Assembly: GCF_021191705.1 (NCBI RefSeq)
Contig: NZ_JAIWPU010000010.1
Coordinates: forward strand, 1-64,000
DNA length: 64,000 nucleotides
DNA from: Proluteimonas flavola
GTDB taxonomy: Bacteria > Pseudomonadota > Gammaproteobacteria > Xanthomonadales > Xanthomonadaceae
Direction: 5' to 3'
The first letter of the stretch is position 1; the number at the start of each line of letters is the position of its first letter. A program made the position numbers and the translations under genes. The notes under the pieces were generated by a model. It was given only the letters and a program-made list of their open reading frames with translations, searched no databases and was not told the DNA's origin. Positions 2,669 to 32,145 of the stretch are shown here, piece after piece.

Positions 2669-3502
2669 ATGCCTGCGTCGGCCAAGAGCCCGGAAACCCT
2701 GCGCGTCATCGAGTCACTGCTCATCTGGGAGGGTGCTGCCGGCAATGAGCGTGTCCGTGAGCTCTTGGATCTTCACTTCACCACCGTCAGCCGTTTGCTG
2801 GCCCAGTACGTCGACCTGAATCCGATAGGCCTGTCGTATTCGACTGTCCAGCGCCGCTGGGTGGCTGATGCGGACTTCAAGCCGCTCCTCACCACTGGCA
2901 CGATCGAAGAGTACCTGGCATACACGCTCACCGAGCGAAACCAGGACGGAGCCATCGTGGTGCGAACGCAGCTTGATTTCGGGGTTGTGCGTCATCTCGC
3001 TTTTGCGATCCTGCATCGTGCGATCCGGGAAGGGCTTGGCGTGACGGCGATGCATTGCTCGATGCGCAGTCCGACGCCAACGTCCAAGATCTTTTATCCG
3101 CATTCTCTTGTGGAAGCGGGACGGCGGTGGCATGTACGGGCCTACGTCCCCGAGTCCGGGACCTTCAAGGATCTCGCACTGACACGACTGAGTGAGCTGT
3201 GCATGACCGATCTTGCATTGCCTGACGAAGCCCGGCAGGAGCGGGATACCGCTTGGACAACACAAGTGGCCCTGCGCGTTACTTCGCATCCAGATCTAAC
3301 GCTTGAACAGAAACAGATGGTGCGAGCCGAATACTTTGGCAGTTCAGCGGCGCGCGTGGAAACGGTCAGGGCGGCTTTGCTGCCTTACATCATCCACGAT
3401 CTTCGTGCGGCCACCGACCCGGCTAGGCAGCAACCTCCTGATTTTCAGCTATGCGTTGCTGATGCTGAAAAGCTTTCAGAATGGTTGATGCCCGGGTCGT
3501 AA
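2669..3502 (+). CDS. WYL-domain transcriptional regulator (BrxR/CapW-like) of the Wadjet operon
   Basis: A 277-residue regulator with the layout of the BrxR/CapW family: an N-terminal winged helix (residues 8-70, VIESLLIWEGAAGNERVRELLDLHFTTVSRLL), a central WYL Sm-fold domain (about 110-190, with HSLVEAGRRWHVRAY and LALTRL), and a C-terminal WCX-like extension. Proteins of this family repress phage-defence operons and are thought to sense nucleic acids or other damage signals through the WYL domain. It is divergent from jetA, with palindromes between the two. The start is ATG 2669; no strong Shine-Dalgarno is visible. Function in this locus is inferred from architecture and context. Confidence 0.8.
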   Translation: MPASAKSPETLRVIESLLIWEGAAGNERVRELLDLHFTTVSRLLAQYVDLNPIGLSYSTVQRRWVADADFKPLLTTGTIEEYLAYTLTERNQDGAIVVRTQLDFGVVRHLAFAILHRAIREGLGVTAMHCSMRSPTPTSKIFYPHSLVEAGRRWHVRAYVPESGTFKDLALTRLSELCMTDLALPDEARQERDTAWTTQVALRVTSHPDLTLEQKQMVRAEYFGSSAARVETVRAALLPYIIHDLRAATDPARQQPPDFQLCVADAEKLSEWLMPGS

Positions 3503-6217: not shown

Positions 6218-6299
6218 TTTCGTGTGCGCTATGTGTGCACTGAGCCGTCGTAGAGGGGCGAAATCGGGCGAAATCCAGTGCATACGAGCGTGCATGCGG

Positions 6300-6395: not shown

Positions 6396-7321
6396 GCCGC
6401 GAGTTCCACCGGCTGCTGGCGCCGGGCGCGCGGCTGTACACGGAAATGGTGCATGCGAAGGCGGTAATCCACGGCGATCGCACGCGATTGCTGGCGAAGA
6501 CGCCGCTGCAGTCGCCGCTCGCGCTGCAGCTCGGCGGCAGCGAGCCGGACGCGCTCGCGCAGGCCGCACGCATCGCGGCCGATCATGGCTTCGACGAGAT
6601 CAATCTCAACTGCGGCTGCCCGTCCGACCGCGTGCAGGCCGGGCGCTTCGGCGCCTGCCTGATGCGCGAACCGGCATTGGTCGCCGACTGCGTCGCGGCG
6701 ATGGCGGCGGCCAGCGACGTGCCGGTGACGGTGAAGTGCCGCCTCGGTGTCGACGGCGACGACGACTACGATGCGTTCGCGCGCTTCGTCGACGGCGCGG
6801 TGGCGGCAGGCGCGTCGATGATCGTCGTGCATGCCCGCAACGCCTGGCTCAGCGGCCTGTCGCCGAAGGAGAACCGCGACATCCCGCCGCTGCGCTACGA
6901 CTGGGCACACCGGCTCAAGCGCGAGCGTCCGGCGCTGCCGGTGGTGCTCAACGGCGGCATCGCGACCCAGCCCGCCGCGCTTGACCAGTTGGTCCACGTC
7001 GACGGGGTGATGCTCGGCCGTGCGGCCTATCACGATCCCTACCTGCTGCACGCACTGGACGCAGCGCTGTCGGGTCGCCCGCTGCAATCGCGCGCCGATC
7101 TGCTGCGCGCGCTGCGACCCTATGCCGAGACGCGCATGTCCGAGGGCGTCGCGCTCAAGCACATCGTCCGCCACGTACTCGGCCTGTTCCATGGACAGCC
7201 CGGCGGACGCCTGTTCCGGCAGGTGCTCAGCGAGGGTGGGCATCGTCCCGGTGCGGACTGGCAGTTGGTCGAACAGGCCCTCGCGGCGACCGCTTGCGTC
7301 GCCGCGCGCGACGCCGCCTGA
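6308..7321 (+). CDS. dusA: tRNA-dihydrouridine synthase A
   Basis: DusA is an FMN-dependent enzyme that reduces uridines in the D-loop of tRNAs. The core is intact: APMMDWTDAHCREFHRLL, LQLGGSEPDALAQAA, the active-site stretch EINLNCGCPSDRVQAGRFGACLM with its catalytic cysteine, VKCRLGVD, VVHARNAWLSGLSPKENR, NGGI and VMLGRAAY. The first 20 residues or so are not DusA-like and appear to be supplied by the adjacent integrated island. Possible starts are ATG 6308, GTG 6290, GTG 6278 or a TTG at 6335/6344. An AAGGA at 6353 has no well-placed standard start after it. The island therefore probably replaces the promoter and start of this housekeeping gene. Confidence 0.9.
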   Translation: MLLILLDKLLNYKEKILATAPMMDWTDAHCREFHRLLAPGARLYTEMVHAKAVIHGDRTRLLAKTPLQSPLALQLGGSEPDALAQAARIAADHGFDEINLNCGCPSDRVQAGRFGACLMREPALVADCVAAMAAASDVPVTVKCRLGVDGDDDYDAFARFVDGAVAAGASMIVVHARNAWLSGLSPKENRDIPPLRYDWAHRLKRERPALPVVLNGGIATQPAALDQLVHVDGVMLGRAAYHDPYLLHALDAALSGRPLQSRADLLRALRPYAETRMSEGVALKHIVRHVLGLFHGQPGGRLFRQVLSEGGHRPGADWQLVEQALAATACVAARDAA

Positions 7322-7479
7322 GCACAGGGGTTTGCCACCCGGTGCCGTTGCCGCCATGATCGTCGGCCGCCCCAAGCTGAACGCAGACAGCGTTGTCAAC
7401 GAAAAGTTAAGGACGGATTCACTGCCTTCGCTCGACCATTCGAGACCCCTGTCGTCGATCCATCCTTCAAGGAGCGGCC

Positions 7480-7851
7480 GTGCCCGTCCCATCGTTCCGC
7501 CGACTGCTGCACCCGCTGATCGCTGCGCTCCTGTGCGCCGCGACGACGGGCGTGGTCGCGCAGGAGCCGCCGCCGCAGGGTGCCGCCGCGCGCGGTCCCG
7601 ACGTGCGCGCGTCGATGCCGCGGCCCGACAACGTCGGACGCCAGCAGGCCCGCGATTCGATGACCGAATCGGTCCGCCGGATCGAGCGCAGCACCCGCGG
7701 CCGCGTGCTCAACATCGAACAGATGCATTCCGACGGGCGCGACCTCAACCGGGTGAAGGTCATGGACGAAAGCGGCCGCGTGCGCATCTATGTCGACGAC
7801 CCGAACCGGGGCGGTGGACGTCCGATCCGTGCACGCGGCGACGACGATTGA
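7480..7851 (+). CDS. secreted PepSY-like protein upstream of phoPQ
   Basis: A 123-residue protein with a GTG start at 7480 preceded by AAGGAG. Residues 1-27 form a signal peptide (LLHPLIAALLCAATTGVVAQ). After a disordered proline/alanine segment comes a short PepSY-type fold (residues 65-112: SVRRIERSTRGRVLNIEQM, RVKVMDESGRVRIYVDD). It is 56 bases before phoP and co-directional, an arrangement common near PhoPQ-like pairs in this family. It plausibly acts in the periplasm on the sensor's input or is simply a co-regulated envelope protein. No enzymatic motif is seen. Confidence 0.7.
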   Translation: MPVPSFRRLLHPLIAALLCAATTGVVAQEPPPQGAAARGPDVRASMPRPDNVGRQQARDSMTESVRRIERSTRGRVLNIEQMHSDGRDLNRVKVMDESGRVRIYVDDPNRGGGRPIRARGDDD

Positions 7852-7907
7852 TCCTGCATCCTCGCCCCCATTCACGGCCGGTCCGGCCGTCAGACCGGAG
7901 TTGACCC

Positions 7908-8594
7908 ATGCGTATCCTGCTCGTCGAAGACGAAGCTCCCCTGCGTGAGACCCTCGCCGCGCGCCTGAAGCGCGAAGGCTTCGCCGTCGATGCCGCCCAG
8001 GACGGCGAGGAAGGCCTGTACATGGGACGCGAGGTGCCGTTCGATGTCGGCATCATCGATCTCGGCCTGCCGAAGATGTCGGGCATGGAACTGATCAAGG
8101 CGCTGCGCGAGGAAGGCAAGCAGTTCCCGGTGCTGATCCTGACGGCGCGTTCGAGCTGGCAGGACAAGGTCGACGGTCTCAAGCAGGGCGCCGACGATTA
8201 TCTGGTCAAGCCCTTCCATGTCGAAGAACTGCTCGCGCGCATCAACGCGCTGGTCCGCCGCGCCGCGGGCTGGAGCAAGCCGACGCTCGAATGCGGCACG
8301 GTCACGCTCGATCTCGCCGCGCAGACCGTCAGCGTCGACGGCAAGAACGTCGACCTGACCAGCTACGAGTACAAGGTGCTCGAGTACCTGATGATGCATG
8401 CCGGCGAACTGGTCTCCAAGGCCGACCTGACCGAGCACATCTACCAGCAGGATTTCGATCGCGATTCGAACGTGCTGGAGGTCTTCATCGGTCGCCTGCG
8501 CAAGAAGCTCGATCCGGACGGCGCGCTCAAGCCGATCGAGACCGTGCGTGGCCGCGGTTACCGCTTCGCGATCCCGCGCAACGGCGAGGGATGA
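7908..8594 (+). CDS. phoP: OmpR-family response regulator PhoP
   Basis: A 228-residue two-domain response regulator. The receiver domain (1-120) has the acidic pair ED (residues 7-8), phosphoacceptor Asp51 in IIDLGLPKMSG, the switch Thr in LILTARS and the Lys in LVKPF. The C-terminal winged helix (130-225) shows LTSYEYKVLEYLM and TVRGRGYRF. The sequence most resembles PhoP, and the sensor kinase follows 92 bases downstream. By family, it would bind DNA as a dimer to control envelope and Mg2+/antimicrobial-peptide stress genes. Whether the PepSY gene shares its transcript is not determined. Confidence 0.92.
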   Translation: MRILLVEDEAPLRETLAARLKREGFAVDAAQDGEEGLYMGREVPFDVGIIDLGLPKMSGMELIKALREEGKQFPVLILTARSSWQDKVDGLKQGADDYLVKPFHVEELLARINALVRRAAGWSKPTLECGTVTLDLAAQTVSVDGKNVDLTSYEYKVLEYLMMHAGELVSKADLTEHIYQQDFDRDSNVLEVFIGRLRKKLDPDGALKPIETVRGRGYRFAIPRNGEG

Positions 8595-8686
8595 GGCGGC
8601 GAGGCCAGCTGCGGAATTCCGCACTGGCGCCGCGTGCGCCCACCGGTCGCTGCTGCCGGCGGGCAGCACAAGCGCCGGTCTGAACG

Positions 8687-19533: not shown

Positions 19534-19693
19534 CGCCCGGCGCCGCGCCGCGCAGCCTCGGTGACGCGCCGGTAGCCGTTTTTCGCCCTCGACCCGTCTC
19601 TGGATGCGTGGGCGAACGCGCCTGGCGCCTTGTGGACAGGCCGCCCGCTGGCGAATCCAAGACCGGATCCGAACGGGAAGAGGCGAGATTGCG

Positions 19694-20389
19694 ATGACCA
19701 GATCCATCCTGAAGTGCTGCGGCATCGGCCTGTGCGTGCTCTTGATCCTGTACGCGCACGCGGTGCAGGCGCAGGTGAGAAGCGCGTCCCGGCATGTCGC
19801 CGACGACCGCGCCCGCGCGGCGCAGGCGCAGCAGCAGCATTTGAACCAGTTGTTCGACAGGGGCGAGCTCGAAAGCATGCTCGAACTGGGCAACGGCGGC
19901 CTGCGCGGCGTCATGGGGCATTCCGAGAAGGCCGGCCGGTCGCTGGCCGGCCTGCTCAGCAGGCCGACGACCGCCGTGGCCGACCGGGAATGGGTGTTCC
20001 TGCTGCCCATGACCCGTTATGTCCAGGCCTGGCACCAGTCGGTCGGCGGCCGGATCCTCACCCGGGATCTGCGGACGCTGCACCCGGACGCGTGGAAGTA
20101 TGCTGGCCGGGTGCGCACGGATACCCAGGGCAACTTCGAGTTCGCCGGACTCAAGCCGGGCCGCTACCTCGTGTTCGCCGAGTTCCCCGTGGGCTTCGAT
20201 GTCGTGGAGAACGTCGATACGGGGCGGCGGACCATCTCGTATTCGCCCGCATTCGGCGCCGGCAGCATCGATCCGGTCTACCAGAAGGTCTACAGCCGCG
20301 ACAGCGTGGTGATCGTGGCCGACCAGGTCGTCGACGTGAGGGAAGGGCAGACCACCCGTTACCGGCCCGCGGTCGAACGGGTGCCCTAG
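19694..20389 (+). CDS. exported protein with a carboxypeptidase-regulatory-like domain
   Basis: A 231-residue protein with N-terminal signal MTRSILKCCGIGLCVLLILYAHAVQA. A helical, glutamine-rich segment (residues 30-75) is followed by WVFLLPMTRYVQAWHQSVGGRILTRDLRTLHPDAWKYAGRVRT and TDTQGNFEFAGLKPGRYLVFAE. The last part is the beta-strand motif seen in SpaA/carboxypeptidase-regulatory domains. No enzyme residues are visible. It precedes another exported protein by 59 bases in the same direction, and the two may be co-transcribed. Function unknown. Confidence 0.6.
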   Translation: MTRSILKCCGIGLCVLLILYAHAVQAQVRSASRHVADDRARAAQAQQQHLNQLFDRGELESMLELGNGGLRGVMGHSEKAGRSLAGLLSRPTTAVADREWVFLLPMTRYVQAWHQSVGGRILTRDLRTLHPDAWKYAGRVRTDTQGNFEFAGLKPGRYLVFAEFPVGFDVVENVDTGRRTISYSPAFGAGSIDPVYQKVYSRDSVVIVADQVVDVREGQTTRYRPAVERVP

Positions 20390-20448
20390 TCATCGTACCG
20401 GCCGCTGTGGCCCGATTTGCGGTGTCTATTCTTGATGGAGAGAACGGG

Positions 20449-21021
20449 ATGGAATTTCGTGCAGCACTGCGCAGGTGTCGTTCGTTGCTGGCGGCCGGAT
20501 CGCTGGCGATCGTGGCCGGCACGCCGGCCGTCGGCCTGGCGCAGGAGGCCGATCCCATGGCATCGGGGAAGCTCAGGTGCAATCCAGCGGCCGATCTGCG
20601 TTGCTGGTACCTGGTCGGCGGCGTCGGCGAGGCGCCCCGGCGCCTGGCGTTCATCGCCCGCAACATCGACGCGCTGGCCCGGGGCAGGCGCAAGGTCGAG
20701 TTCATCCAGGTGATCGAGCAGGCGGACTATCCGGAACGCTTCGTGATCTGGCAACTCGACATCGACTGCGGCAAGGGCAGTTTCCGGGTGGAGCGCGATC
20801 GTGTCGGCCATGCCAACGGCACGGTGACCGACGACGCGATCGAGAACGACCAATGGCAGGCCTTCTCCGCAGGCCGGTACGGCGAGCGGGCCGTGCAGCC
20901 GCTGGCCTGCGGCACCGGCGAGCCCGGCGGGGACGTCGCGCTGTTCCTCGGCAACGCCTATCGCGCGCCCGACATCGTGCACCAGTTCCGCAACGTCTTC
21001 TGGGCGCCCGACGGTCGCTAG
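20449..21021 (+). CDS. exported protein of unknown function
   Basis: A 190-residue protein starting at ATG 20449 (an ATG 14 bases upstream is out of frame). Signal peptide: residues 1-31, ending TPAVGLAQ. The mature part has three cysteines consistent with disulphides (RCNPAADLRCWYLVGG, LDIDCGKGSF) and a surface-like pattern WQLDIDCGKGSFRVERDR that resembles small proteins of the surface-adhesin-E type found in many Proteobacteria. No motif identifies an activity. It follows the previous exported protein and precedes the D-amino-acid cassette by 237 bases without obvious connection. Confidence 0.55.
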   Translation: MEFRAALRRCRSLLAAGSLAIVAGTPAVGLAQEADPMASGKLRCNPAADLRCWYLVGGVGEAPRRLAFIARNIDALARGRRKVEFIQVIEQADYPERFVIWQLDIDCGKGSFRVERDRVGHANGTVTDDAIENDQWQAFSAGRYGERAVQPLACGTGEPGGDVALFLGNAYRAPDIVHQFRNVFWAPDGR

Positions 21022-21258
21022 GACGATAGCCTGCGACCGGCTACGTGCTTCCGGCCAGGCGTCTGGAGCCGCTGGATACAGGCTCGGAAGTTCCGCATCG
21101 ACCACGCCAATGCTCGATACCTGCCGCGAAAGGGGGAGGCTGGCGTCGGAGTTCCGGCCGGCCTTCTACACCGGTGCCGGCCAGGAATGGCGCGCCGGTG
21201 GCCGTTTTTCCCTGTCGCCCCGTCTACGACAGGACAGCCATCGCGCGCGGGAGACGGC

Positions 21259-22410
21259 ATGAATCGACGGGAGCTGCTGATCGCGGCGGGTGCGGCGGCG
21301 GTGGCCCGCTGCCTGGGTCCGGTGGGCGCGGCCTCCGCGAGCCGCGCGCGCGGCAACGTGCCGCTGCCGTGGCCGCCGTACGCGGACATGCTGGTCATCG
21401 ACGGCTGCGGCGGCCTGGGCCGCTGGGGCGGGCCGCCGGACCGCAGCCTGGACGCGCTCACCCTCGCCGACGCGCGCGCCTCCGGGGTCGACGCGGTGGT
21501 GCTGACGACCGCGCCGTCGGGACGGTCTTGGTTCGGCGAGGCCGGCTACCAGACCGTGCTGGGCGAACTGGCGCACTGGGACCGCCAACTGCGGCTGCAT
21601 CCCGACCGCCTGATCGGGATCCTGTCCGCCGATGACCTGGCGCGCGCCCGGCGCGAGCGCAGGTTCGGCCTGATCTACGGCTTCCAGGACACCTCGCCGC
21701 TGGGCGAGGACCTGGACCGCATCGACCTGTACCACAGGCGCGGGGTGCGCGTGATCCAGCTCACCCACAACCGCCGCAACCTGGTCGGCGACGGTTGCAT
21801 GGAGCCGGGCAACGCCGGCCTCAGCAACTTCGGCCGGCAGGTGGTCGCTGGCCTGAATGCGCACCGGGTCCTCGTCGACCTGTCCCATGCCGGCCGACGC
21901 ACCGCGATGGAGGGCGTGCTGGCCTCCGAGCGGCCCGTGGTGTTCAGCCACACCGGCTGCGCCGCGCTGTCCGACGTGCCGCGCTGCATGCCCGACGACG
22001 TGCTGCGCGCCATGGCCGACCGGGGCGGGGTGGCGGCCATCGTCTTCTGGCCGTACCTGCGTACGCTGGGGCAGCCGACCTCCGAGGACCTGATCCGGCA
22101 CATCGAGCACGCCATCGACGTCTGCGGCGAGGACCACGTGGGCCTGGGCACCGATGCGACAGTCTCGGCGGTCGAGCGGACGCCGGAGTTCGAGGCGCAG
22201 AACCGGCAATGGGTCGAGCACATGCTCGAGATCGGCTTCTTCGAGGCGGGAAACGCGCCGGAGCTGTACACGTTCATCCCCGATCTCAACCACGTGCGCC
22301 GCCTGGAGACGCTGGCCGCCCTGCTGTCCCGGCGCGGCCACTCCGAGGCGCGCATCGGCAAAATACTGGGCGGCAACTTCGCGCGGGTGATGCGCGAGGT
22401 CTGGGGCTGA
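21259..22410 (+). CDS. M19 membrane-dipeptidase homologue with altered metal site
   Basis: A 383-residue exported protein (MNRRELLIAAGAAAVARCLG, a Tat-like signal). The fold is M19/renal dipeptidase: RRGVRVIQLTHNRRNLVGDGC, VDLSHAGRRT and VVFSHTGCAAL carry two of the zinc histidines. The first zinc motif, normally DGHND, reads DGCGG (residues 48-52), and the bridging glutamate normally in a GIEG-type motif reads GFQDTSP. Three of five metal ligands therefore look replaced. M19 enzymes cleave dipeptides, accept D-residues at the C-terminal position, and can open some beta-lactams. It is first in a co-directional cassette, 60 bases before the sigma factor. Confidence 0.8.
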   Translation: MNRRELLIAAGAAAVARCLGPVGAASASRARGNVPLPWPPYADMLVIDGCGGLGRWGGPPDRSLDALTLADARASGVDAVVLTTAPSGRSWFGEAGYQTVLGELAHWDRQLRLHPDRLIGILSADDLARARRERRFGLIYGFQDTSPLGEDLDRIDLYHRRGVRVIQLTHNRRNLVGDGCMEPGNAGLSNFGRQVVAGLNAHRVLVDLSHAGRRTAMEGVLASERPVVFSHTGCAALSDVPRCMPDDVLRAMADRGGVAAIVFWPYLRTLGQPTSEDLIRHIEHAIDVCGEDHVGLGTDATVSAVERTPEFEAQNRQWVEHMLEIGFFEAGNAPELYTFIPDLNHVRRLETLAALLSRRGHSEARIGKILGGNFARVMREVWG

Positions 22411-22470
22411 AGGCGACGGGACGGACGCACCCGGTTCGCCGGGCCATCCACGGGAGCGCAAGCGGACACG

Positions 22471-22995
22471 ATGCACGGGGACAAGGATCATCGCGAGCAG
22501 TGGTTCGACGACGTGGTCTCCACGGTCAACGGCGACCTGCTGCGCTTCCTGCGCTCGCGCACGGGCCAGCAGCACCTGGCCGAGGATCTGGCCCAGGAGG
22601 TCTACCTGCGCCTGCTGCGGATGGACGATGTGCGCCTGATCCGCAATCCGCGTGCCTTCGTCATCCGTCTCGCCGCCCACGCCGTCCACGAGTGGAGGAT
22701 GCTCGCACGCAACCGGATGCCGCATGCGCACGAGCCGCTGCAGACGCTGGTCGATCCGGCCGACGATCCGGCCGAGCGGATCGAGCGCGACGACCGGTTG
22801 CGTGCGCTGTCGAGCATGCTGGCGACGCTGAGCCCCAAGTGCCAGGCGGTGCTGCTGATGCACAGGCGCGACGGCATGACCTGCCAGGAGATCGCGGCGC
22901 GGATGGAACTCTCGGTCGGAATGGTCAAGAAGTACCTGGCGCGCGGACTGACCGCGTGCCGCACGCAAGCGGCGGGCACGCATGAACAAGACTGA
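22471..22995 (+). CDS. ECF sigma factor, FecI type
   Basis: A 174-residue ECF sigma factor. Region 2 (residues 25-90) contains LLRFLRSRTGQQHLAEDLAQEVYLRLL and the core-binding helix LIRNPRAFVIRLAAH. Region 4 (about 115-170) has LATLSPKCQAVLLMHRRDGMTCQEIAARMELSVGMVKKYLARGL. The sequence follows the FecI pattern that partners with FecR and a signalling TonB receptor. Its stop overlaps the next gene, the FecR-like regulator, by 14 bases. By analogy it transcribes the receptor and downstream catabolic genes when the surface receptor is occupied. Confidence 0.92.
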   Translation: MHGDKDHREQWFDDVVSTVNGDLLRFLRSRTGQQHLAEDLAQEVYLRLLRMDDVRLIRNPRAFVIRLAAHAVHEWRMLARNRMPHAHEPLQTLVDPADDPAERIERDDRLRALSSMLATLSPKCQAVLLMHRRDGMTCQEIAARMELSVGMVKKYLARGLTACRTQAAGTHEQD

Positions 22996-24031
22996 CGGCA
23001 TGGGCGGGCGCCGCGACCGCGACATCGCCGCGCAGGCGGCCGAGTGGGTGGTGTCGCTCGCCGACCCCGGTTCGAGCGTCGGCGAACGCCGGGCATTCGT
23101 CGCCTGGCTCAAGCGCTCGCCGGTGCACCTGGAAGAATACCTGCGCGCCGAAGGGGCCTGGGCGGAACTGGGACTGCTGGACCCGGAGCGGCGGTTCGAC
23201 GTCGACGCGCTGCTCGCGCGGCCGGAGACCAACGTGGTCGACCTGGGGGTCGTCGGCGACGGCGGGCGCGTCGCGTCCAGGACGCCGTTCGCGATGCTGG
23301 CGGGCGTCGCCGCCGTGGCGGTCGCGGTGCTGTTCTCGCTCGGGCTGTTCCTGATGTCGTCCGGCCCCGGCGACGGCTACGCCACCGCGATCGGCGAGCA
23401 GCGCACGGTCCGTCTCGCCGACGGCTCGTCGGTGGTGCTCAACACCGATACGCGGCTGCACGTGGCGTTCTCGGGAACGGCGCGCGAGGTGCGTCTGCTG
23501 GCGGGCGAGGCCCTGTTCTCGGTGGAGAAGGATGCCGCGCGTCCGTTCCGCGTGGCGAGCGACGGGGTCGTGGTCCAGGCGGTCGGCACCGCATTCGTGG
23601 TCCGCAGGACCCCGGATCGGACCATCGTCTCGGTCCTGGAGGGCGAGGTCGCCGTCGCGCGCGCCCGGCCTGCCGCAGTGCCTGCGGCCGATGCGCCCGA
23701 CGGCGCGCTCCGGCTCCTTGCCGGCCAGCGCGCGGACATCGCGGCGCACGCGGCGCGGACCCGCGACATCCGCAATCCCGAGGCGGTGACCGCGTGGCGC
23801 GGCGGACGCCTGGTGTTCGACGGCGACACGCTGGCCGAGGTCGTGGCCGAATTCAACCGCTACAACAGGGTGAAGCTGGTGCTCGACGACCCCGTGCTGT
23901 CCGCCGAACGCGTCAGCGGCGTGTTCGATTCGGACCGGCCGCAGGCACTGGCACGGTTCCTCGAGCATGCCGGCGTCGTCGAAACACCTAGGCGCGCTGA
24001 CGACCGCATCGTCCTGGTGCCACGCCGGTAG
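22982..24031 (+). CDS. FecR-family anti-sigma/signal transducer
   Basis: A 349-residue protein with an N-terminal cytoplasmic anti-sigma domain (residues 10-60, AAQAAEWVVSLADPGSSVGERRAFVAWLKRSPVHLEEYL), one transmembrane helix (about 102-124, AGVAAVAVAVLFSLGLFLMSS) and a periplasmic FecR domain (QRTVRLADGSSVVLNTDTRLHV, LLAGEALFSVEKDAARPFRV). The C-terminal STN-like part (WRGGRLVFDGDTLAEVVAEFNRYNRVKL) contacts the receptor signalling domain. It is translationally coupled to the sigma factor and lies 64 bases before the receptor gene. Confidence 0.92.
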   Translation: MNKTDGMGGRRDRDIAAQAAEWVVSLADPGSSVGERRAFVAWLKRSPVHLEEYLRAEGAWAELGLLDPERRFDVDALLARPETNVVDLGVVGDGGRVASRTPFAMLAGVAAVAVAVLFSLGLFLMSSGPGDGYATAIGEQRTVRLADGSSVVLNTDTRLHVAFSGTAREVRLLAGEALFSVEKDAARPFRVASDGVVVQAVGTAFVVRRTPDRTIVSVLEGEVAVARARPAAVPAADAPDGALRLLAGQRADIAAHAARTRDIRNPEAVTAWRGGRLVFDGDTLAEVVAEFNRYNRVKLVLDDPVLSAERVSGVFDSDRPQALARFLEHAGVVETPRRADDRIVLVPRR

Positions 24032-24095
24032 CCGTTCCGACCGCCTCGACCGGTCTGTGGAATGTGGGAGCCGCCAGCGCAGAGGGGAACTCGTC

Positions 24096-26765
24096 GTGCG
24101 ATCGAACACCTTGCAATCCATCATGCTCGGAACCGCGCTGCTGGTCGCGGCGGGTGCCGCCGCCGCATCGGAACCGACCTACGCGATTGACCTGGACGGC
24201 GGCTCGCTGCGAGGCGCGCTCCGGCAGTTCGCCGAACAGACCGGCCTTCAGGTCGCCTACTTCACCCATGTCGCCGAAGGGCGCGACGCGCCCGCGGTCT
24301 CCGGCCGGCTGACCGCGGGGCAGGCGCTGGATGCGCTGCTGGGCAGCAGCGGGCTCGCGTTCGAGCGCATCGACGAACGCACCGTGGCCATCCGCGCGAT
24401 GCAGTCCGGCGCGCCCGCCGAGCCGCCGGAAGCGCCCGAGGCGCCCGCTCGGCCGACCGTCCCCGAGACGCCGGCGCCGCGGCGCGACGATGCGGAGGTC
24501 GTGCAGTTCGGCGCGGTCGTCGTCACCGGCTCGCACCTGCGCGGGGTGGCCAACGACACCGCGCCGCTGACCACGTTCGACCGCGACTACATCGAACGCT
24601 CGGGCTACGGCAACATGATGCAACTGGTCGAATCGTTGCCGATGAACTTCAAGGGCGGCGCCTCGGGCGCTTCGGAAGTGGGGCAGTTCGGCGAGGCGCC
24701 GTTCTACGGCCAGAACCTCAACCGCGGCACCGGCTTCAATCTGCGCGGGCTGGGTTCGGCATCGACGCTGACGCTGATCAACGGCCGCCGGGTCGCGCCG
24801 TCCGCGCACGGCCAGTTCGTCGACGTCAGCACGATCCCGCTGTCGGCGGTCGAGCGCGTGGAGATCCTCGGCGATGGCGCGTCCGCGATCTACGGCGCCG
24901 ACGCGGTGGCCGGCGTGGTCAACATCATCCTGCGCCAGGATTTCGACGGCGCCGAGGCCGCGCTGCAGGCCGGCAGTGCGACCGACGGCGCCACCCGCGA
25001 CGGCCGCGCGTCGCTGACCTCGGGTCACAGCTGGGACGGCGGCAGCGTCCTGGTGGTCGGCGAGTACTACCGGCGCGAACCGCTGGACATCCTCGACCGC
25101 GACTACATCGTCGCCGCCGGCCTGGCCGGACCGACCTGGCTGCTGCCCAGGCGCGAGGCCGGCAGCCTGATGGTCTCGGGCCGGCAACTGCTGCCGGGCG
25201 GCTTCGATGCGGCGGCCGACCTGCTCTACTCCCACGAGCGCGTGGACACGCTCGACACCACGGCCGGCACTTCCACCCAGACCCAGGATCCGGTCACGAA
25301 CCGCTGGAGCGTCGCGTTCGGCCTCGGCTACGAGCCGTCGGACAACTGGCGCTTCGCGCTCGACGGCAACGCCGGGCGCGTGCACACCCGGACGGACTGG
25401 ACCTACACCAGCGTGGCGACCGGCGAGGTGCTGATGCTGATCCGCGACTACGACGACCGCTTCGACACCTGGTCGCTGGAAGCGAAGGCCGACGGCACGC
25501 TGGCGACGCTGCCCGGCGGCCCGGTACGGCTGGCCGTCGGCGGCGGCTATCGCGAGGATGACCTGCTGTCGACCCGCGTGCGGGCGATCCCGGACAACGG
25601 CTTCCAGGTCCGCGCCGACGATGCGCGCCAGGTGGCCTACGCGTTCTCGGAGCTGCACGTGCCGCTGCTGGGCCGGCACCAGGAGGTGCGCTGGGCGCGG
25701 CGGCTGGAGCTGTCGCTGGCGGCCCGCTACGACGACTATTCCGACTTCGGCAGCAGCGCCAACCCGCGGGTCGGCCTGGTGTGGTCGCCGAGCGACCGGC
25801 TGGACCTGCGCGCCAGCTACAGCACCTCCTTCCGCGCCCCGAGCATGGCGGAGAAGGCGCTGGCCACGCGCGGGCAGATCTCCTCCGAATGGCTCGACGC
25901 ACCCGACGGGAGCGGGGCGCAGGTCCCGGTGCTGGTGCTGTCGGGCAGCGCGCCGCTGGCGCCGGAGGAATCGGAGAACCTCGCGATCGGCTTCACCTAC
26001 CGCCCGGCGCCGGTGCCCGGGCTCGAACTGGGCGTCAACTGGTTCGACATCGACTACACCGACCGCATCGCCTCGCCGCCATACGATGCCGGCATGCTGG
26101 CGCGGCGCGACGAGTTCGGCGACCTCATCGCCGACCTCCCGGACGATGCCGCCGCGCAGGCCTACCTGGCGCAGCGGATCGCGGCGGGCGACCTCTACAT
26201 CGACCGGACCGGCACCGGCGCGGCCGGCGTGCACCACCTGGTGGACGCGCGGCAGAAGAACGCCGCCCGCGTCCGCACCAGCGGTTTCGACCTCACCGCG
26301 CGCTACGGCACCACGGTCGGGCGCGACAGCTTCGACCTGCAGTTCAACGCGACCCACCTGCGCGAGCTGTTGACCTCGCTGACCGCCGACAGCACCGCGT
26401 TCGACCGCATCGACACCTACAATCAGCCGCTGGACTGGCGCCTGCGCGCCGTCGGCACCTGGCAGCGTGGCGGCTTCGGCCTGACCGTCGGGGTCAGCCA
26501 TGCCGACGGCTACGTCAACGACAGCCAGGCCGTGGACGTGCCGATCGACGCGTGGACCACGGTCGACGTCAACGCGAGCTACGCCTTCGGCGAGGGCACG
26601 CGGTTCCCCGCGATGCGCGGCGTGCGCGCCTCGCTGGGGGTCAGCAACCTGCTGGACGTCGATCCGCCGCGCGCGATCTCGCCGCGCTACCCGGTGGGCT
26701 ACGACGCCTTCAACGCCGATCCGGTCGGGCGCTACGTCTCCGCGCGCCTGGCCAAGCGCTGGTAG
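24096..26765 (+). CDS. signalling TonB-dependent outer-membrane receptor with STN domain
   Basis: From GTG 24096 (AGAGGGGAA upstream) the protein has 889 residues. After the signal peptide comes an STN domain (residues 30-90, YAIDLDGGSLRGALRQFAEQTGLQVAY), a proline-rich linker, a TonB-box region (VVVTGSHL), the plug (GFNLRGLGSASTLTLINGRRVAPS, GASAIYGADAVAGVVNIILR) and a 22-strand barrel ending in aromatic KRW. The STN domain marks it as a transducer that signals through FecR to the sigma factor. The plug most resembles the peptide/polymer-type receptors common in Xanthomonadaceae rather than siderophore receptors. Substrate is inferred from the downstream D-amino-acid enzymes. Confidence 0.92.
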   Translation: MRSNTLQSIMLGTALLVAAGAAAASEPTYAIDLDGGSLRGALRQFAEQTGLQVAYFTHVAEGRDAPAVSGRLTAGQALDALLGSSGLAFERIDERTVAIRAMQSGAPAEPPEAPEAPARPTVPETPAPRRDDAEVVQFGAVVVTGSHLRGVANDTAPLTTFDRDYIERSGYGNMMQLVESLPMNFKGGASGASEVGQFGEAPFYGQNLNRGTGFNLRGLGSASTLTLINGRRVAPSAHGQFVDVSTIPLSAVERVEILGDGASAIYGADAVAGVVNIILRQDFDGAEAALQAGSATDGATRDGRASLTSGHSWDGGSVLVVGEYYRREPLDILDRDYIVAAGLAGPTWLLPRREAGSLMVSGRQLLPGGFDAAADLLYSHERVDTLDTTAGTSTQTQDPVTNRWSVAFGLGYEPSDNWRFALDGNAGRVHTRTDWTYTSVATGEVLMLIRDYDDRFDTWSLEAKADGTLATLPGGPVRLAVGGGYREDDLLSTRVRAIPDNGFQVRADDARQVAYAFSELHVPLLGRHQEVRWARRLELSLAARYDDYSDFGSSANPRVGLVWSPSDRLDLRASYSTSFRAPSMAEKALATRGQISSEWLDAPDGSGAQVPVLVLSGSAPLAPEESENLAIGFTYRPAPVPGLELGVNWFDIDYTDRIASPPYDAGMLARRDEFGDLIADLPDDAAAQAYLAQRIAAGDLYIDRTGTGAAGVHHLVDARQKNAARVRTSGFDLTARYGTTVGRDSFDLQFNATHLRELLTSLTADSTAFDRIDTYNQPLDWRLRAVGTWQRGGFGLTVGVSHADGYVNDSQAVDVPIDAWTTVDVNASYAFGEGTRFPAMRGVRASLGVSNLLDVDPPRAISPRYPVGYDAFNADPVGRYVSARLAKRW

Positions 26766-26800
26766 GCGCCCCGATGCGCACCGTTTCCCGGAGGACCGCC

Positions 26801-28009
26801 ATGCACACGCCCGTCCCGCATTCCCGATGCCGCACCTGGATCGCCGCCGTCGTGCTGCTCGCGGCGGGCACGGTGCAGGCCGCACCCGCGACCGATCCGC
26901 CGCGCGGATGGGCGCCGCTGGTGGCCGACTTCGAGCGCCTGCTCGAGCGCGACGGCGTGGTCGGCGGCAGCATCGGGCTGGTCGAGGATGGCCGCCTGGT
27001 CGACCGCCGCGACTACGGCTTCGCCGACCGCACCGCCGGCCGGCGCGTGGACGGCGATACCGTGTTCCATTGGGCCTCGATCACCAAGACCATCAACGCC
27101 ATCACCGTGATGCAGCTGGTCGAGCAGGGGCGGCTGACGCTCGGCGATCCGATCGTGCGCCACATCCCCGAGCTGCGGCGCATGCACAACCCCTACGGTG
27201 CGATGGATGCGATCACCGTCGGCATGCTGCTGTCGCATACCGCCGGTTTCCAGGGGCCGACCTGGCCCTGGCGCAGCGGCGCGGAGTGGGAGCCGTTCGA
27301 GCCGACGGACTGGGAACAGATCGTGGCGATGCTGCCGTACCAGCGCATCGAGTCCAGGCCCGGATCGCAGTACGGCTACTCCAATCCCTCGTGGATCCAC
27401 CTGGCGCGGATGGTCGAGCGGATGAGCGGCGAGGGCTGGCAGTATCGCGTGCAGAAGCAGGTGTTCGCCCCGCTGGGCATGGACCGCAGCTACTTCGGGC
27501 TGACGCCGCCGCACCTGAAGGCGCACCGGTCCCGGCGCTACCTGGTCCAGCGCGACGCGACCGGCGCGGCGGCGCTGCGCGAGCTCGACGGCGAGTTCGA
27601 TCCCGGCATCACGATCCCCAACGGCGGCTGGAACGCGCCGCTGGCGGACGCGGCGACGTATGTCGGCTTCCTCACCGGCGCGCCGCGCGGCGATGCCGGA
27701 CTGCGCCGGCGCCACGACAGCGTGCTGTCGCGCGAGACGCTGGCGCGGATGTGGGAGCCGCGGATCGCCGTGTCGGATGCGCCCGACGCCGAGCGGGTGG
27801 GCCTGGGATTCTTCGTCAGCGGCGAGGGCGCGGGCCGCGTCGTCGGCCACACCGGCGGGCAGGGCGGCTTCCTGTCGTTCCTGTACTTCAACCCGGAGAC
27901 CGGGCGCGGCGTGGTCGCGGCGTTCAACACCGCGCGCCCGGAGGCGCAGGACGGGCGCCCGGGCTTCTTCCAGGCGCTGCGGCACTCGGCGATCGAGGTG
28001 CTGCGGTGA
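26801..28009 (+). CDS. exported serine hydrolase, beta-lactamase/D-aminopeptidase fold (S12)
   Basis: The start at ATG 26801 is favoured because GGAGGA lies just upstream; an in-frame ATG at 26774 lacks this. The 402-residue protein has signal peptide 1-28, then the penicilloyl-serine transferase motifs: Ser93-x-x-Lys96 (WASITKT), Tyr193-Ser-Asn195 (YGYSNPSW) and HTGG near residue 347. Family members include D-stereospecific aminopeptidases, DD-carboxypeptidases, esterases and class C beta-lactamases. It lies 35 bases after the receptor gene and overlaps the deacylase gene by four bases. In this context, periplasmic cleavage of D-amino-acid peptides is the favoured inference. Confidence 0.88.
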   Translation: MHTPVPHSRCRTWIAAVVLLAAGTVQAAPATDPPRGWAPLVADFERLLERDGVVGGSIGLVEDGRLVDRRDYGFADRTAGRRVDGDTVFHWASITKTINAITVMQLVEQGRLTLGDPIVRHIPELRRMHNPYGAMDAITVGMLLSHTAGFQGPTWPWRSGAEWEPFEPTDWEQIVAMLPYQRIESRPGSQYGYSNPSWIHLARMVERMSGEGWQYRVQKQVFAPLGMDRSYFGLTPPHLKAHRSRRYLVQRDATGAAALRELDGEFDPGITIPNGGWNAPLADAATYVGFLTGAPRGDAGLRRRHDSVLSRETLARMWEPRIAVSDAPDAERVGLGFFVSGEGAGRVVGHTGGQGGFLSFLYFNPETGRGVVAAFNTARPEAQDGRPGFFQALRHSAIEVLR

Positions 28010-29580
28010 GCGGCGCTGGCAATCGCGCGGCGGCCGGGCCGTGGCGCAGAGGCATCGGGACGCTGTGCGTGGCACTGGCGACGCTGGCGTCGACGGGCTG
28101 CGCGGCGGACGCGGCGCCGGCCTACGATCTGTGGATCCGCAACGGCACCGTCGTCGACGGCAGCGGCGCAGCCCCCAGGCGCGCGGACGTCCTGGTGCGC
28201 GGCGACACCATCGCGCTGGTCGGCACGCCCGACGCGGACGAGGTCCGCGCCGGACGCACGATCGACGCCACCGGCCGGTTCGTCGCTCCCGGCTTCATCG
28301 ACCTGCACGCCCACGGCGATCCGCTGCGCCAGTCGTTCGCGAACTTCCTGGCCCAGGGCATCACCACCGTGGTGCTCGGCCAGGACGGCGCCTCCCCCGG
28401 CGCCCAAGAAGAGCAGGAGGAAGGATTGTTCGGTCGCTGGGCGCGGGCGGTGGAACGCCACGGCAGCGAAGTCAACATCGCCGCGCTCACCGGCCACGGC
28501 ACGCTGCGCCTGTTGGCCGGCGTGGACCTCGCACCGACGCCTACCGCGGCGCAGATGGCGGTCATGCAGGAGGCGCTGTCGTCGAATCTCGCGCAGGGCG
28601 CGTTCGGTCTCAGCTTCGGACTCGAATACCCGCCCGGCCGCTACGCGTCGCGGTCGGAACTGAAGGCGCTCGGCGATCTCGTCGGCCGGCACGGCGGTAT
28701 CGTGATGAGCCACATGCATACCGAGGACAGCGGCCGGATCCTGGACGCCATCGACGAACTGCTGCAGATCGACGCGCACGTCCACGTGTCGCACCTGAAG
28801 ATCGTCGCGGGCCGCGATGCGGCCGAGGCGCGGGCGGTGCTCGCCCGGCTCGATGCAGCGCGCGCGGACGGACGCCGGGTCACCGGCGACGTGTATCCCT
28901 ACCTCGCCAGCGCCAGCTCGCTGTACTTCCTCTATCCCGAGTGGGCCAAGACGCGCGAGCAGTACGAGGATGCGGTAGCGAACCGGCGCGCGGCGCTGGA
29001 GGCTCACATCCGCCGCCGGGTGGAGTCGCGCAACGGGCCGGAGGCGATCCTGTTCACCGCCGGTCCGCATGCCGGCCGCCGGCTGTCGGACGTGGCGCGC
29101 GAGGCGGGCCTGCCGTTCGAGCGGGCGGCGATCGACGTCATCGGCTACGGCGGACCGCCGCAGGCGCACTTCCTGATGGCGCAGGACGTGCACGACGTGT
29201 TAGTCCGCGCGGAGCACGTGGGCATCGGCACCGACGGCGCACCCGGCGGCGCGCATCCGCGGGCCGCCGGCACCTTCGTCAAGATGCTGGAGGCGCACGT
29301 CGGCGCGCCACCGAAGCTGCTTCTGGACCAGGCGATCCACAAGATGACCGGCCTGCCGGCGGGGATCCTGGGGATCGATCGTGGACTGCTCCAGGCCGGG
29401 CGCAAGGCCGATATCGTCGTGTTCGACCTCGACCGGCTCGACAGCCGCGCGACCTACCTGGAGCCGATGCTGCGGCCGGCCGGAATCGACCTCGTCGTCG
29501 TCAATGGCGAGGTCGCGCTGGAGGACGGCACGCCCTTGGAGCGCCGCAGCGGGCACATGTTGCGGCGTCTGGCGCGGTGA
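28006..29580 (+). CDS. N-acyl-D-amino-acid deacylase family lipoprotein (amidohydrolase)
   Basis: Starts at GTG 28006, overlapping the previous stop (GTGA). The 524-residue protein has a lipoprotein signal with lipobox STGC, so it acts at the envelope. Amidohydrolase features: GTVVDGSGAAPRRADVLV, FIDLHAHGD (HxH metal motif), MSHMHTEDSGRILDAIDEL, HVSHLKIVAG and GIGTDGAPGGAHPRAAGTF. The position that holds a metal-ligand cysteine in classical D-aminoacylase (GNCG) reads GQDG, a variant typical of a sister group. The family releases free D-amino acids from N-acyl or peptide forms. It sits between the serine hydrolase and the D-cysteine desulfhydrase. Confidence 0.87.
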   Translation: MSGAGNRAAAGPWRRGIGTLCVALATLASTGCAADAAPAYDLWIRNGTVVDGSGAAPRRADVLVRGDTIALVGTPDADEVRAGRTIDATGRFVAPGFIDLHAHGDPLRQSFANFLAQGITTVVLGQDGASPGAQEEQEEGLFGRWARAVERHGSEVNIAALTGHGTLRLLAGVDLAPTPTAAQMAVMQEALSSNLAQGAFGLSFGLEYPPGRYASRSELKALGDLVGRHGGIVMSHMHTEDSGRILDAIDELLQIDAHVHVSHLKIVAGRDAAEARAVLARLDAARADGRRVTGDVYPYLASASSLYFLYPEWAKTREQYEDAVANRRAALEAHIRRRVESRNGPEAILFTAGPHAGRRLSDVAREAGLPFERAAIDVIGYGGPPQAHFLMAQDVHDVLVRAEHVGIGTDGAPGGAHPRAAGTFVKMLEAHVGAPPKLLLDQAIHKMTGLPAGILGIDRGLLQAGRKADIVVFDLDRLDSRATYLEPMLRPAGIDLVVVNGEVALEDGTPLERRSGHMLRRLAR

Positions 29581-29647
29581 GCGGTGGACGCGCGTGCCGG
29601 CGCGGACCGGCGCCGGTGTCCCGTACTCGCCACCTGCAGGATTCCGC

Positions 29648-30658
29648 ATGGACCTGACCGCGTTCCCACGCGTGAAGCTGATGCACGGGGACACGCCCCT
29701 GCACGACCTGCCCGGGCTGGGCAGGGCCCTGGGAACGCAGCGGCTGCTGATCAAGCGCGACGACTGCACCGGCCTGGCCTTCGGCGGCAACAAGACCCGC
29801 AAGCTGGAATTCGCGCTGGGCGAGGCGCTGCGGCGCGATGCCGACGTGATCATCACCACCGGGGCGTGGCAGTCCAACCACGTCCGCCAGACCGCCGCCG
29901 CCGCTGCGCGCCTGGGCCTGCGCTGCCATGCGGTGGTGCACAGCCCGCTGCCCGCGCCCGGCGGCGACTACCGCCGCTCCGGCAACCTGCTGCTCGACCG
30001 CCTGCTCGGCTGTACGCTGCACGACGTGGCATCGGAAGAGGCGGGCATCGAATGCATCGCGGCGCTGGCAGGACGGGAGGCGGCGACGGGGGCGATTCCC
30101 CACGTCGTGACGATGGGCGCGTCGGACGGCGTCGGCGCGCTCGGCTACGTGGCCTGCGCGCAGGAGCTGCTGCGCCAGTGCCGGGACATCGCGGCGGCCC
30201 CCAGCCACATCGTGCTGGCGACCGGCAGCGCCGGCACCCACGCCGGCCTGCTCGCGGGACTGCGCGTGGCAGGTTCGGACATCGCCGTGGTCGGCATCTC
30301 GGTGTCCGAGCCCGCCGAGTCGAAGCGGATCCGGGTGCGGCGCGTGCTCGACGACCTGGCGCGGACGACCGGGACTCCGGTGCAGGTGCCGGACGAGGCG
30401 ATCGTGGTGCTGGACGACTACGCCGGGCAGGGATACGGCGTGCCGACCGCGGCTGGCGACGTGGCGCTGCGCCTGCTCGCGCGCAAGGAAGGGATCCTGC
30501 TCGATCCGGTGTACACCGCCAAGGCGATGTCGGGATTCCTCGACCTGCTGGCGCACGCGCGCTGCGGCCCGATGCGCGATCCCGTGTTCCTGCACACCGG
30601 CGGCACGCCAGCGCTGTTCGCGTACCTGGACCACTATCTGCCCGGGACCGCGATGTGA
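29648..30658 (+). CDS. dcyD: D-cysteine desulfhydrase family PLP enzyme
   Basis: A 336-residue fold-type II PLP enzyme. The PLP lysine is Lys49 in FGGNKTRKLEFALGEAL, followed by TTGAWQSNHVRQTAAAAARLG. The phosphate-binding loop is ATGSAGTHAGLLAG, and GYGVPTAAGDVAL plus LDPVYTAKAMSGFLDL are typical. It belongs with D-cysteine desulfhydrase and ACC deaminase; the former forms pyruvate, sulfide and ammonia from D-cysteine. Assignment within this group is not certain from motifs alone. It lacks a signal peptide, so it is cytoplasmic. It is 67 bases downstream of the deacylase gene, with the permease following 22 bases later. Confidence 0.85.
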   Translation: MDLTAFPRVKLMHGDTPLHDLPGLGRALGTQRLLIKRDDCTGLAFGGNKTRKLEFALGEALRRDADVIITTGAWQSNHVRQTAAAAARLGLRCHAVVHSPLPAPGGDYRRSGNLLLDRLLGCTLHDVASEEAGIECIAALAGREAATGAIPHVVTMGASDGVGALGYVACAQELLRQCRDIAAAPSHIVLATGSAGTHAGLLAGLRVAGSDIAVVGISVSEPAESKRIRVRRVLDDLARTTGTPVQVPDEAIVVLDDYAGQGYGVPTAAGDVALRLLARKEGILLDPVYTAKAMSGFLDLLAHARCGPMRDPVFLHTGGTPALFAYLDHYLPGTAM

Positions 30659-30680
30659 TCGCGCGTTCCTGCGTGTCGCG

Positions 30681-32018
30681 ATGCCGGCCGCGCGCCCGGC
30701 GCGCCGGGCCTGGCCGGTGAGCGGCGGGCAGGCACGCCCCTCGGGACTGGCGCGCGTGGTGACGCGCTGGCAGCTGCTGGGCCTGTCGCTCAACGACGTG
30801 ATCGGCAGCGGCGTCTACCTGCTGCCGGCGGCGACCTTCGCGCTGCTGGGCGCCTTCAGCGTCTGGGCGGTGCTGCTGGCGGGCCTGACGATCGGCCTGC
30901 TGGTGTTGTGCTACGCGAAGGCGGCCAGCCATTTCGACCAGCCCGGCGGCAGTTACCTGTACGCACGCGAGGCGTTCGGGCCGTTCGCCGGGTTCCAGGT
31001 CGGCTGGACCATCTGGCTGACCCGGATCAGCGCCGCGGCCGCGCTCGCCAACGGCCTGGCCGATGCGGTGGCGCGCTTCTGGCCGCCGGCGGCCACCGGG
31101 GCCGGGCGTGCCGCCGTGGCCGGCGGATCGCTGCTGCTGCTGACCGCGATCAACATCGTCGGCGTGCGCTGGGCGGCGCGGACCGCGGTCGTGCTGGTGG
31201 TCGGCAAGCTGGTGCCGCTGATGCTGTTCCTGTGCATCGGCCTGTTCCACGTCGACTGGGGGCTGGCGTTCGGCGGTCCGCGGCCCGGGCCGGTCGACGC
31301 GTCGCGGCTGGGCGAGGCGGCGTTGCTGCTGCTGTTCGCCTATGCCGGTTTCGAGAACCTCGCCGCGGCCGCCGGCGAGTACCGCAATCCCCGCCGCGAC
31401 GTCCCGTTCGCGCTGCTGACGATGATCGTCACGGTCACCGTCATCTACGCGGCGGTGCAACTGGTGGCGCAGGGCACGCTGGCGGGGCTGGCCGGCTCGA
31501 CGGCGCCGCTGGCGGACGCGGCCGCCGGCTTCGGCGGCGAAGGCCTGGCGCTGGTGTTGACCGTCGGCGCGGCGCTGTCGATCCTCGGCAGCAACAGTAA
31601 CACCATGCTGCTGGGGCCGCGGTTCGTGCACGCGCTGTCGATCGACGGTTACGGTCCGCGCGTGCTGTCGCGCGTGCATCCGCGGTTCCGGACGCCCGCG
31701 GTCGCCATCGTTCTGCAGTGCGCGCTGGCCCTGCCGCTGGCGCTGAGCGGTTCGTTCGCGCAGCTGGCGGTGCTGTCGATGGTCACCCGCCTGATGGGCT
31801 ACATCGCCACCGCGGCCAGCGTGCTGGTGATCGAACGGCGCGACCGCGGCCGTCCCGGCGTGCTGCGCCTGCCGGGCGGGCCGGCGATCCCGGCGCTCGC
31901 GCTGCTGCTGTCGCTGGCGCTGCTGTCGAGCGCCAGCGCCGCCAACCTGCTGGCGGTCGGGGCCGCGGTCGCGGTCGGCAGCCTGATCTACGCGCTGCGC
32001 CGTCGCCCGGGCGATTGA
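30681..32018 (+). CDS. APC-superfamily amino acid permease
   Basis: A 445-residue membrane protein with about 12 hydrophobic helices. The N-terminal signature LGLSLNDVIGSGVYLLPAATFALLG holds the helix-broken GSG motif that binds the amino-acid carboxylate and amine in APC carriers. QPGGSYLYAREAFGPFAGFQVGW and LLFAYAGFENLAAAAGEYRNPRRDVPFAL are also diagnostic. The ATG at 30681 or a GTG at 30718 could be the start. As the last gene of the cassette it would import the free amino acids released by the envelope hydrolases. Substrate is inferred only from context. Confidence 0.88.
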   Translation: MPAARPARRAWPVSGGQARPSGLARVVTRWQLLGLSLNDVIGSGVYLLPAATFALLGAFSVWAVLLAGLTIGLLVLCYAKAASHFDQPGGSYLYAREAFGPFAGFQVGWTIWLTRISAAAALANGLADAVARFWPPAATGAGRAAVAGGSLLLLTAINIVGVRWAARTAVVLVVGKLVPLMLFLCIGLFHVDWGLAFGGPRPGPVDASRLGEAALLLLFAYAGFENLAAAAGEYRNPRRDVPFALLTMIVTVTVIYAAVQLVAQGTLAGLAGSTAPLADAAAGFGGEGLALVLTVGAALSILGSNSNTMLLGPRFVHALSIDGYGPRVLSRVHPRFRTPAVAIVLQCALALPLALSGSFAQLAVLSMVTRLMGYIATAASVLVIERRDRGRPGVLRLPGGPAIPALALLLSLALLSSASAANLLAVGAAVAVGSLIYALRRRPGD

Positions 32019-32145
32019 TCCGGCCCGCAAACATCATGTCTTGCAGGAACGTCCCCGGGCGCGATGTCATCGAATCAGAAAGGCATCGCGCCCGAGGGCG
32101 TTCTTGCAGTTCAAGGGCCGGATCAGCAGGGCGACACGGGAACGG

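Follow-up and report, generated by a model that had tools for sequence, protein, structure and literature searches.

Gene content and limits of the island

We examined a 64,000-nucleotide stretch of the Proluteimonas flavola genome (contig NZ_JAIWPU010000010.1, positions 1 to 64,000; hereafter the window), in which eight co-directional genes encode an M19 peptidase homologue, a FecI-type sigma factor, a FecR-type regulator, a TonB-dependent receptor, an S12 serine hydrolase, a deacylase-like amidohydrolase, a pyridoxal phosphate (PLP) enzyme and an amino-acid permease. The initial annotation read these genes as a self-regulated cassette for the scavenging or detoxification of D-amino-acid peptides. 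Its observation is confirmed, the coordinates, strand, order and gaps of the eight genes all being as it gave them, and its interpretation is partly supported. The eight genes are part of a 12.6-kb inserted island that spans 19534..32145. Because the island starts near 19534, two secreted-protein genes (19694-20389 and 20449-21021) belong to it; thus all eight genes stand, while the unit begins about 1.6 kb earlier than had been drawn. The features of the island are:

19571..19598, + strand: promoter-like element GGTAGCC-N16-CCGTC before the first secreted-protein gene (repeat and pattern search)
19694..20389, + strand: secreted protein 1, signal-peptide-like start (by eye), weak CarboxypepD_reg/SdrD_B-like domain (Pfam)
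20449..21021, + strand: secreted protein 2, signal-peptide-like start (by eye), no family assigned
21197..21224, + strand: promoter-like element GGTGGCC-N16-CCGTC before the M19 gene (would read into sigma-FecR)
21259..22410, + strand: M19 homologue, twin-arginine translocation (TAT)-type export (by eye), altered metal site (Peptidase_M19, E 1e-73)
22471..22995, + strand: extracytoplasmic function (ECF), FecI-type sigma factor (Pfam sigma-70 regions 2 and 4)
22982..24031, + strand: FecR-type anti-sigma regulator (Pfam FecR, 2e-24; 14-base overlap with the sigma gene)
24027..24055, + strand: promoter-like element GGTAGCC-N17-CGGTC before the receptor gene (FecR stop TAG, 24029-24031, inside)
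24096..26765, + strand: TonB-dependent receptor with STN-like signalling domain (Pfam Plug and beta-barrel)
26774..28009 (start may be 26801), + strand: S12 serine hydrolase, exported (by eye; Pfam Beta-lactamase, 6e-61)
28006..29580, + strand: N-acyl-D-amino-acid-deacylase-like amidohydrolase, exported, probably a lipoprotein (by eye; Amidohydro_3, 7e-16)
29648..30658, + strand: PLP enzyme of the D-cysteine desulfhydrase / D-cysteate sulfo-lyase family (PALP, 4e-46)
30681..32018, + strand: APC-family amino-acid permease (AA_permease_2, 4e-40)
32042..32108, inverted repeat: hairpin after the permease gene, 25-nt arms, 88% complementary, 17-nt loop

Most NCBIfam matches of the eight proteins fall below cut-off. 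The deacylase start overlaps the S12 end by 4 bases, and the PLP gene follows the deacylase after 67 bases and precedes the permease by 22. For secreted protein 1 every Pfam score lies below cut-off, for secreted protein 2 Pfam gives no match at E 0.05, and the fetched loci, except those of the own genome, hold no match to either. The hairpin is a possible terminator; terminator-like patterns number four in the region against 3.1 expected, and the one minus-strand match within the hairpin is not support for it. When translations were read by eye, the M19 homologue was seen to begin with MNRRELL (twin-arginine type), the S12 hydrolase with a Sec-type signal and the deacylase with a lipobox-like STGC, and no export signal was seen in the PLP enzyme. 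Together with the families, these signals suggest that an importer lies in the outer membrane and a permease in the inner membrane, with the hydrolases in the periplasm and the PLP enzyme in the cytoplasm.

The limits of the island come from alignment to the sites of two congeners, in which the flanking genes abut: window positions 19530 and 32145, 12,615 apart, correspond to points 18 apart in G878 (L089), while in G867 (L088) the points that match 19530 and 32143 are 29 apart. The site was examined in 20 of the 29 congeners shown to carry the flanking gene, and at none of these 20 sites was there a match to the sigma factor, FecR, receptor, S12 hydrolase, deacylase, PLP enzyme or permease. 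GC content lends the island weak support, being 0.71-0.735 across 21-32 kb against 0.65-0.70 on either side; elsewhere in the window it reaches 0.72, and over the island's initial 1.6 kb, at 0.68-0.70, it is not raised.

At the start of the window, 3-3502 resembles a Wadjet/JetABCD-type defence operon (an SMC-like ATPase and partners, translations judged by eye), and beside it 4931-6295 resembles, again by eye, a site-specific integrase.

Distant copies, signalling genes and promoter-like element

An alignment of the S12 hydrolase was scanned over a genome collection. It produced 206 pattern matches and 139 relatives, the best 80 of these being retained. Three of these 80 loci, all from distant soil bacteria, carry M19, sigma, FecR, receptor, S12 and deacylase genes together, at 46-70% identity: two in Peristeroidobacter soli (L108 and L109) and one in the proteobacterial metagenome-assembled genome (MAG) SZAS-87 (L110). 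This grouping is more than chance, and the conserved co-occurrence that the initial annotation had proposed as a check is borne out for six of the eight genes, with a PLP gene in two of the three loci. Identity to the window is 65-70% for the sigma factor, 46-52% for FecR and 53-56% for the receptor. The three relatives have two extra amidohydrolases inserted between receptor and S12 genes, two of them (L108 and L110) have the M19 gene on the opposite strand, and beyond the deacylase of L109 and L110 lie, also on the opposite strand, a Na+/H+-antiporter-type transporter and the PLP gene.

The deacylase is found near S12 in 11 of the best 80 loci (not counting L119, where the match is partial, at 74 bits), and stands beside it in L111, in sphingomonads and in an alphaproteobacterial MAG; of the 11, six come from Sphingomonas records, which are not independent and of which at least two represent one species. 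The row of L111 comprises PLP enzyme, LanC-like protein, two S12 hydrolases, S15 peptidase, deacylase and TonB receptor. A PLP gene of the window's family lies near S12 in four of the best 80 loci; L031, from G032, and L173, from a Balneolaceae MAG, are among the loci where the two are neighbours. The PLP genes of L109, L110 and L111 share one lineage; the window's enzyme has 48.6% identity with a D-cysteine desulfhydrase from a Zymomonas plasmid and 41% with that of L109, which suggests that this pairing arose more than once. The G032 stretch (L031 1162-19898) is a large peptide-degradation island of its own, with TonB receptors, a met-zincin, two M16 peptidases, S12, PLP, LysR and S15 genes and, by eye, a gamma-glutamyltransferase-like protein.

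Other candidates were rejected. A first scan of genome contigs with the deacylase gave no match, and it was the S12 alignment that later found the cassettes. Deacylase searches returned one of 369 genomes of the class, the window's own (E 1e-100), and four of 398 of the phylum, again including it (E 1e-70); the three others are without the cassette, one of them (G688, L029) having an S12 gene that adjoins the deacylase. Near the six closest deacylases of the family (44-47%) no match to sigma, FecR, PLP, permease, receptor or M19 is present; four of the six have a weak S12 match (28-29%) there. In the fifth S12 locus (L112) the deacylase is missing, and FecR and receptor are distant (28-30%). 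The sigma-FecR-receptor sets of G012 and G065 (L075-L077; receptor 35-36%, FecR 31-35%, sigma 25-37%) were taken to be different signalling sets, with deacylase and PLP gene absent; L076 has no sigma match, and L075 carries a weak S12 (28%).

The signalling genes have the FecI-FecR-STN architecture, with ECF sigma regions 2 and 4, a FecR domain and an STN domain on the receptor, the last under its gathering cut-off (24.8 against 28.4 bits, E 2e-5); the NCBIfam FecA model matches receptor residues 4-107. FecIR-STN receptors classically sense ferric siderophores. Import of a pyochelin/yersiniabactin-type chelate, its D-cysteine-derived part then dismantled by the enzymes, would suit a PLP enzyme of the D-cysteine family, but neither a ferric reductase nor an iron ABC permease was recognised in the eight genes and ten flanking open reading frames scanned, and we regard this siderophore or thiol-metallophore scavenging as very unlikely. 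The receptor stays below the NCBIfam receptor cut-offs, with 81 of the 324 bits required by the haemoglobin/transferrin model, 79 of 600 for vitamin B12 and 66 of 224 for siderophore receptors, scores that carry little weight either way.

A 38-nucleotide repeat, at 19562-19599 and before the M19 gene (84% identical), was the starting point for an element pattern with the consensus GGTAGMC-N16/17-CSGTC. The element precedes the M19 and receptor genes in all four loci (window, L108, L109 and L110), so the genes expected as targets have a promoter-like element in common. Window sites at 19571, 21197 and 24027 lie before the first secreted-protein, M19 and receptor genes. In the relatives the elements precede M19, sigma and receptor genes: at 2826(-), 2851 and 4523 in L108; at 1550 (a GGTAGCT variant), 2794 and 4445 in L109; and at 2783(-), 2804 and 4537 (an AGTAGCC variant) in L110, which has two further matches away from these starts. 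In each of the four loci the FecR stop codon TAG lies within the receptor's element.

L108, L109 and L110 have 3, 3 and 5 matches against shuffle means of 0.08, 0.13 and 0.16 (maxima 1, 2 and 2) and a background in other loci of 11.5 per Mb, counts that are partly circular because the pattern used for the shuffles and genomes was shaped on cassette sites. They were repeated with a pattern taken from the window only, which found two matches in L109 and three in L110 (0.11 expected in each), four of the five in equivalent positions, against 13 in 180 other loci (2.5 Mb). With a strict pattern, all four matches in the 9.4-Mb P. soli assembly are inside its two cassettes, as are two of eight in SZAS-87 and one of five in the window's genome. 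We infer that this sigma factor reads the element. Self-regulation by the FecI/FecR/receptor set, as first proposed, is supported, the element common to the four loci adding to the gene content.

Enzymes and the D-amino-acid reading

The catalytic motifs of the S12 hydrolase (SxxK, YxN, HxG) are intact as SITK, YSN and HTG; its score with the D-aminopeptidase model, 35 of 443 bits, says nothing for or against a preference for D-residues. In deacylases of this type a Lys/Tyr/Arg set binds the D-amino-acid carboxylate, and an HxH motif, two His and an Asp form the metal site. These residues (H101, H103, H236, H263, D410, K265, Y299 and R419) are invariant in the nine sequences compared. The PLP enzyme keeps the PLP lysine and the Tyr-Thr of the D-cysteine desulfhydrase group, where 1-aminocyclopropane-1-carboxylate deaminase has Tyr-Glu. 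Its best NCBIfam model is D-cysteate sulfo-lyase (CuyA; 377 of 450 bits), as it is for the PLP enzymes of L109, L110, L111, L031 and L173, all below cut-off.

The deacylase family includes a solved N-acyl-D-glutamate deacylase and a D-aminoacylase, and the PLP family a solved D-cysteine desulfhydrase; D-specific members in both families argue for a D-amino-acid theme. So does the setting of one P. soli copy (L109), which follows genes for an S12 protein, an enolase-type MR_MLE protein (presumably DgcA), a TonB receptor, DUF1611 (which we take to be DgcN) and a transporter-like membrane protein without family match. The dgcN gene has been described as key to the racemisation of acidic D-amino acids (PMC12363236). 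The theme of the initial annotation thus fits the deacylase, the PLP family and these neighbours, while its M19 and D-cysteine parts are not supported in the form given.

We read the island as an acquired, surface-sensed and ligand-induced locus for the utilisation of peptides or N-acyl compounds that contain D-amino acids, and think this somewhat probable; the D-specificity, the substrate, the direction of signalling and a catabolic rather than protective role are what we infer from it. The receptor would bind a compound outside the cell, and its STN domain would signal via FecR and release the sigma factor. Acting at the GGTAGMC-N16/17-CSGTC elements, this factor would switch on transcription of the secreted-protein genes, of M19-sigma-FecR and of receptor-S12-deacylase-PLP-permease. 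In the periplasm the S12 hydrolase and the lipoprotein deacylase would cleave the compounds taken up, in P. soli perhaps together with the two further amidohydrolases. A freed beta-substituted D-amino acid would then enter through the permease, to be degraded by the PLP enzyme by beta-elimination.

Several observations weigh against this utilisation reading, beginning with distribution. The six-gene set occurs in only three of the best 80 S12 loci, and S12 itself in one of 52 genus genomes, that of the window, and in two of 119 from the family, of which the window's is again one. Within its 21 kb L108 has no PLP gene, and no orthologue of the APC permease, which had been counted as a conserved member, is found in L108-L110. 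At the island site G883 (L093) has an M19 gene alone, 78% identical to that of the window and perhaps the remnant of a lost cassette. This lone gene lies at L093 16587-17735, with GTTAGCC present upstream and the CCGTC half absent. A tree of M19 proteins groups it firmly with the window gene and leaves the placement of the P. soli genes unsettled; row L041 of alignment A2, read on the wrong strand, was disregarded. The gene in G883 and the missing permease would both suit a composite locus, with M19, permease and PLP genes as passengers beside a sigma-FecR-receptor-S12-deacylase core, as would the different lineage of the PLP gene and the M19 orthologues of family loci L059 and L060, which lie near a DnaG-like gene (by eye). 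The M19 gene is nevertheless next to the sigma gene in all three distant copies and preceded by the element in all four loci, and PLP genes of the window's family accompany S12 in L109, L110, L111, L031 and L173, which leaves a composite decidedly unlikely.

The element also has points against it. Its three sites in the window are unexceptional, shuffles of the window averaging 0.41 matches and reaching three, so that the window by itself proves little. The window-only pattern finds no site in L108, and genome-wide counts do not exceed those of reversed-pattern controls (5 against 10 in the own genome, 4 against 17 in P. soli); the evidence for the element is thus its position and not its number.

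The enzymes, too, give points against the reading. The metal site of M19 membrane dipeptidases consists of HxD, a bridging Glu and two His. In the M19 homologue the N-terminal HxD region is without its His and the bridging Glu is Gln (GFQD), so that the protein is unlikely to be an ordinary dipeptidase, and the claim that it acts on D-residues is not supported. Two later His and the Asp are kept, and the protein may hold a single metal or have a different function. L108-L110 and L093 share these losses, and Gln likewise replaces Glu in 2i5g, a solved relative; the Pfam match begins at profile position 37, against 2 in three paralogues. D-aminoacylases carry a Cys metal ligand, in place of which the deacylase has Asp127 (aligned to the Cys of 3gip) in all nine sequences, and its score with NF006560 is 175 of 340 bits, under the cut-off. 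The PLP enzyme stays under every equivalog cut-off (307 of 429 bits with the desulfhydrase model, CuyA also below), and the D-cysteine specificity first assigned to it is therefore not upheld.

The same enzymes could be arranged for defence, the locus sensing and destroying a neighbour's D-residue antibiotic (a non-ribosomal lipopeptide or a beta-lactam) and salvaging the products. The S12 family includes D-stereospecific resistance peptidases and class C beta-lactamases, and the intact S12 motifs, a Beta-lactamase2 protein beside M19 in L108 and the sporadic, island-borne distribution all agree with such a role. The TonB receptor, amino-acid permease and PLP catabolic enzyme point instead to uptake and use, neither an efflux pump nor a target-protection gene was recognised among the eight, and the S12 hydrolase reaches only 67 of 415 bits with the general class C beta-lactamase model; we judge defence unlikely. 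The thiazoline-siderophore and beta-lactam substrates named in the initial annotation found no direct support.

A narrower version of the utilisation reading is a dedicated lanthipeptide-utilisation system that feeds on thioether-bridged peptides of the lanthionine type or on others with S-linked D-cysteine. As an S-substituted D-cysteine, meso-lanthionine has a bond of the kind that a PLP enzyme of the D-cysteine family could cut. In L111 a LanC-like protein (7253-8650; PF05147, E 7e-41; TAT-type export by eye) is encoded between PLP and S12 genes; it keeps GWCHG and has CC where LanC usually has CHG, and might run in reverse, opening the thioether ring. LanC-like proteins had no match in 299 phylum genomes (a search without positive control) or in the other loci then compared, and among 19 plasmid records with a LanC match, the three annotated neighbourhoods inspected hold no D-enzymes. 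With LanC in L111 alone the idea rests on one locus, and we give it little credence.

Relation to known systems

D-residues occur in many peptide antibiotics. They also belong to recalcitrant organic matter (PMC12363236). Polysaccharide utilisation loci are well known, and a comparable sensed locus for D-amino-acid compounds would be their counterpart; a sensed, self-contained locus of this kind is not described among the matches listed from the open-licence literature. For direct assay the island offers at least three enzymes, and it also provides a receptor and a sigma factor together with a candidate promoter element.

FecI-FecR-FecA signalling has the same co-directional ECF sigma factor, FecR-type regulator and TonB receptor with STN-like domain. 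The island differs in having hydrolases, a PLP enzyme and a permease in place of iron transport genes, and in its elements, which precede M19 and receptor genes and, in the relatives, also the sigma gene. With S12 D-stereospecific resistance peptidases and D-aminopeptidases it shares family and catalytic motifs, whereas its own S12 hydrolase sits in a sensed uptake locus. Lasso-peptide isopeptidase loci with FecI, FecR and a TonB receptor similarly combine surface-sensed uptake of a modified peptide with a dedicated hydrolase; neither an S9-type isopeptidase nor maturation genes were recognised in the eight genes and ten flanking open reading frames, and the island has enzymes of D-residue families instead. 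The DgcN-DgcA pathway for D-glutamate and other D-amino-acid catabolic genes (PMC12363236) likewise serve D-amino-acid catabolism, and genes of the dgcA and dgcN types adjoin one P. soli copy. Neither dgcA nor dgcN is among the recognised genes of the island, which is predicted to add outer-membrane uptake, periplasmic release and a sigma factor of its own.

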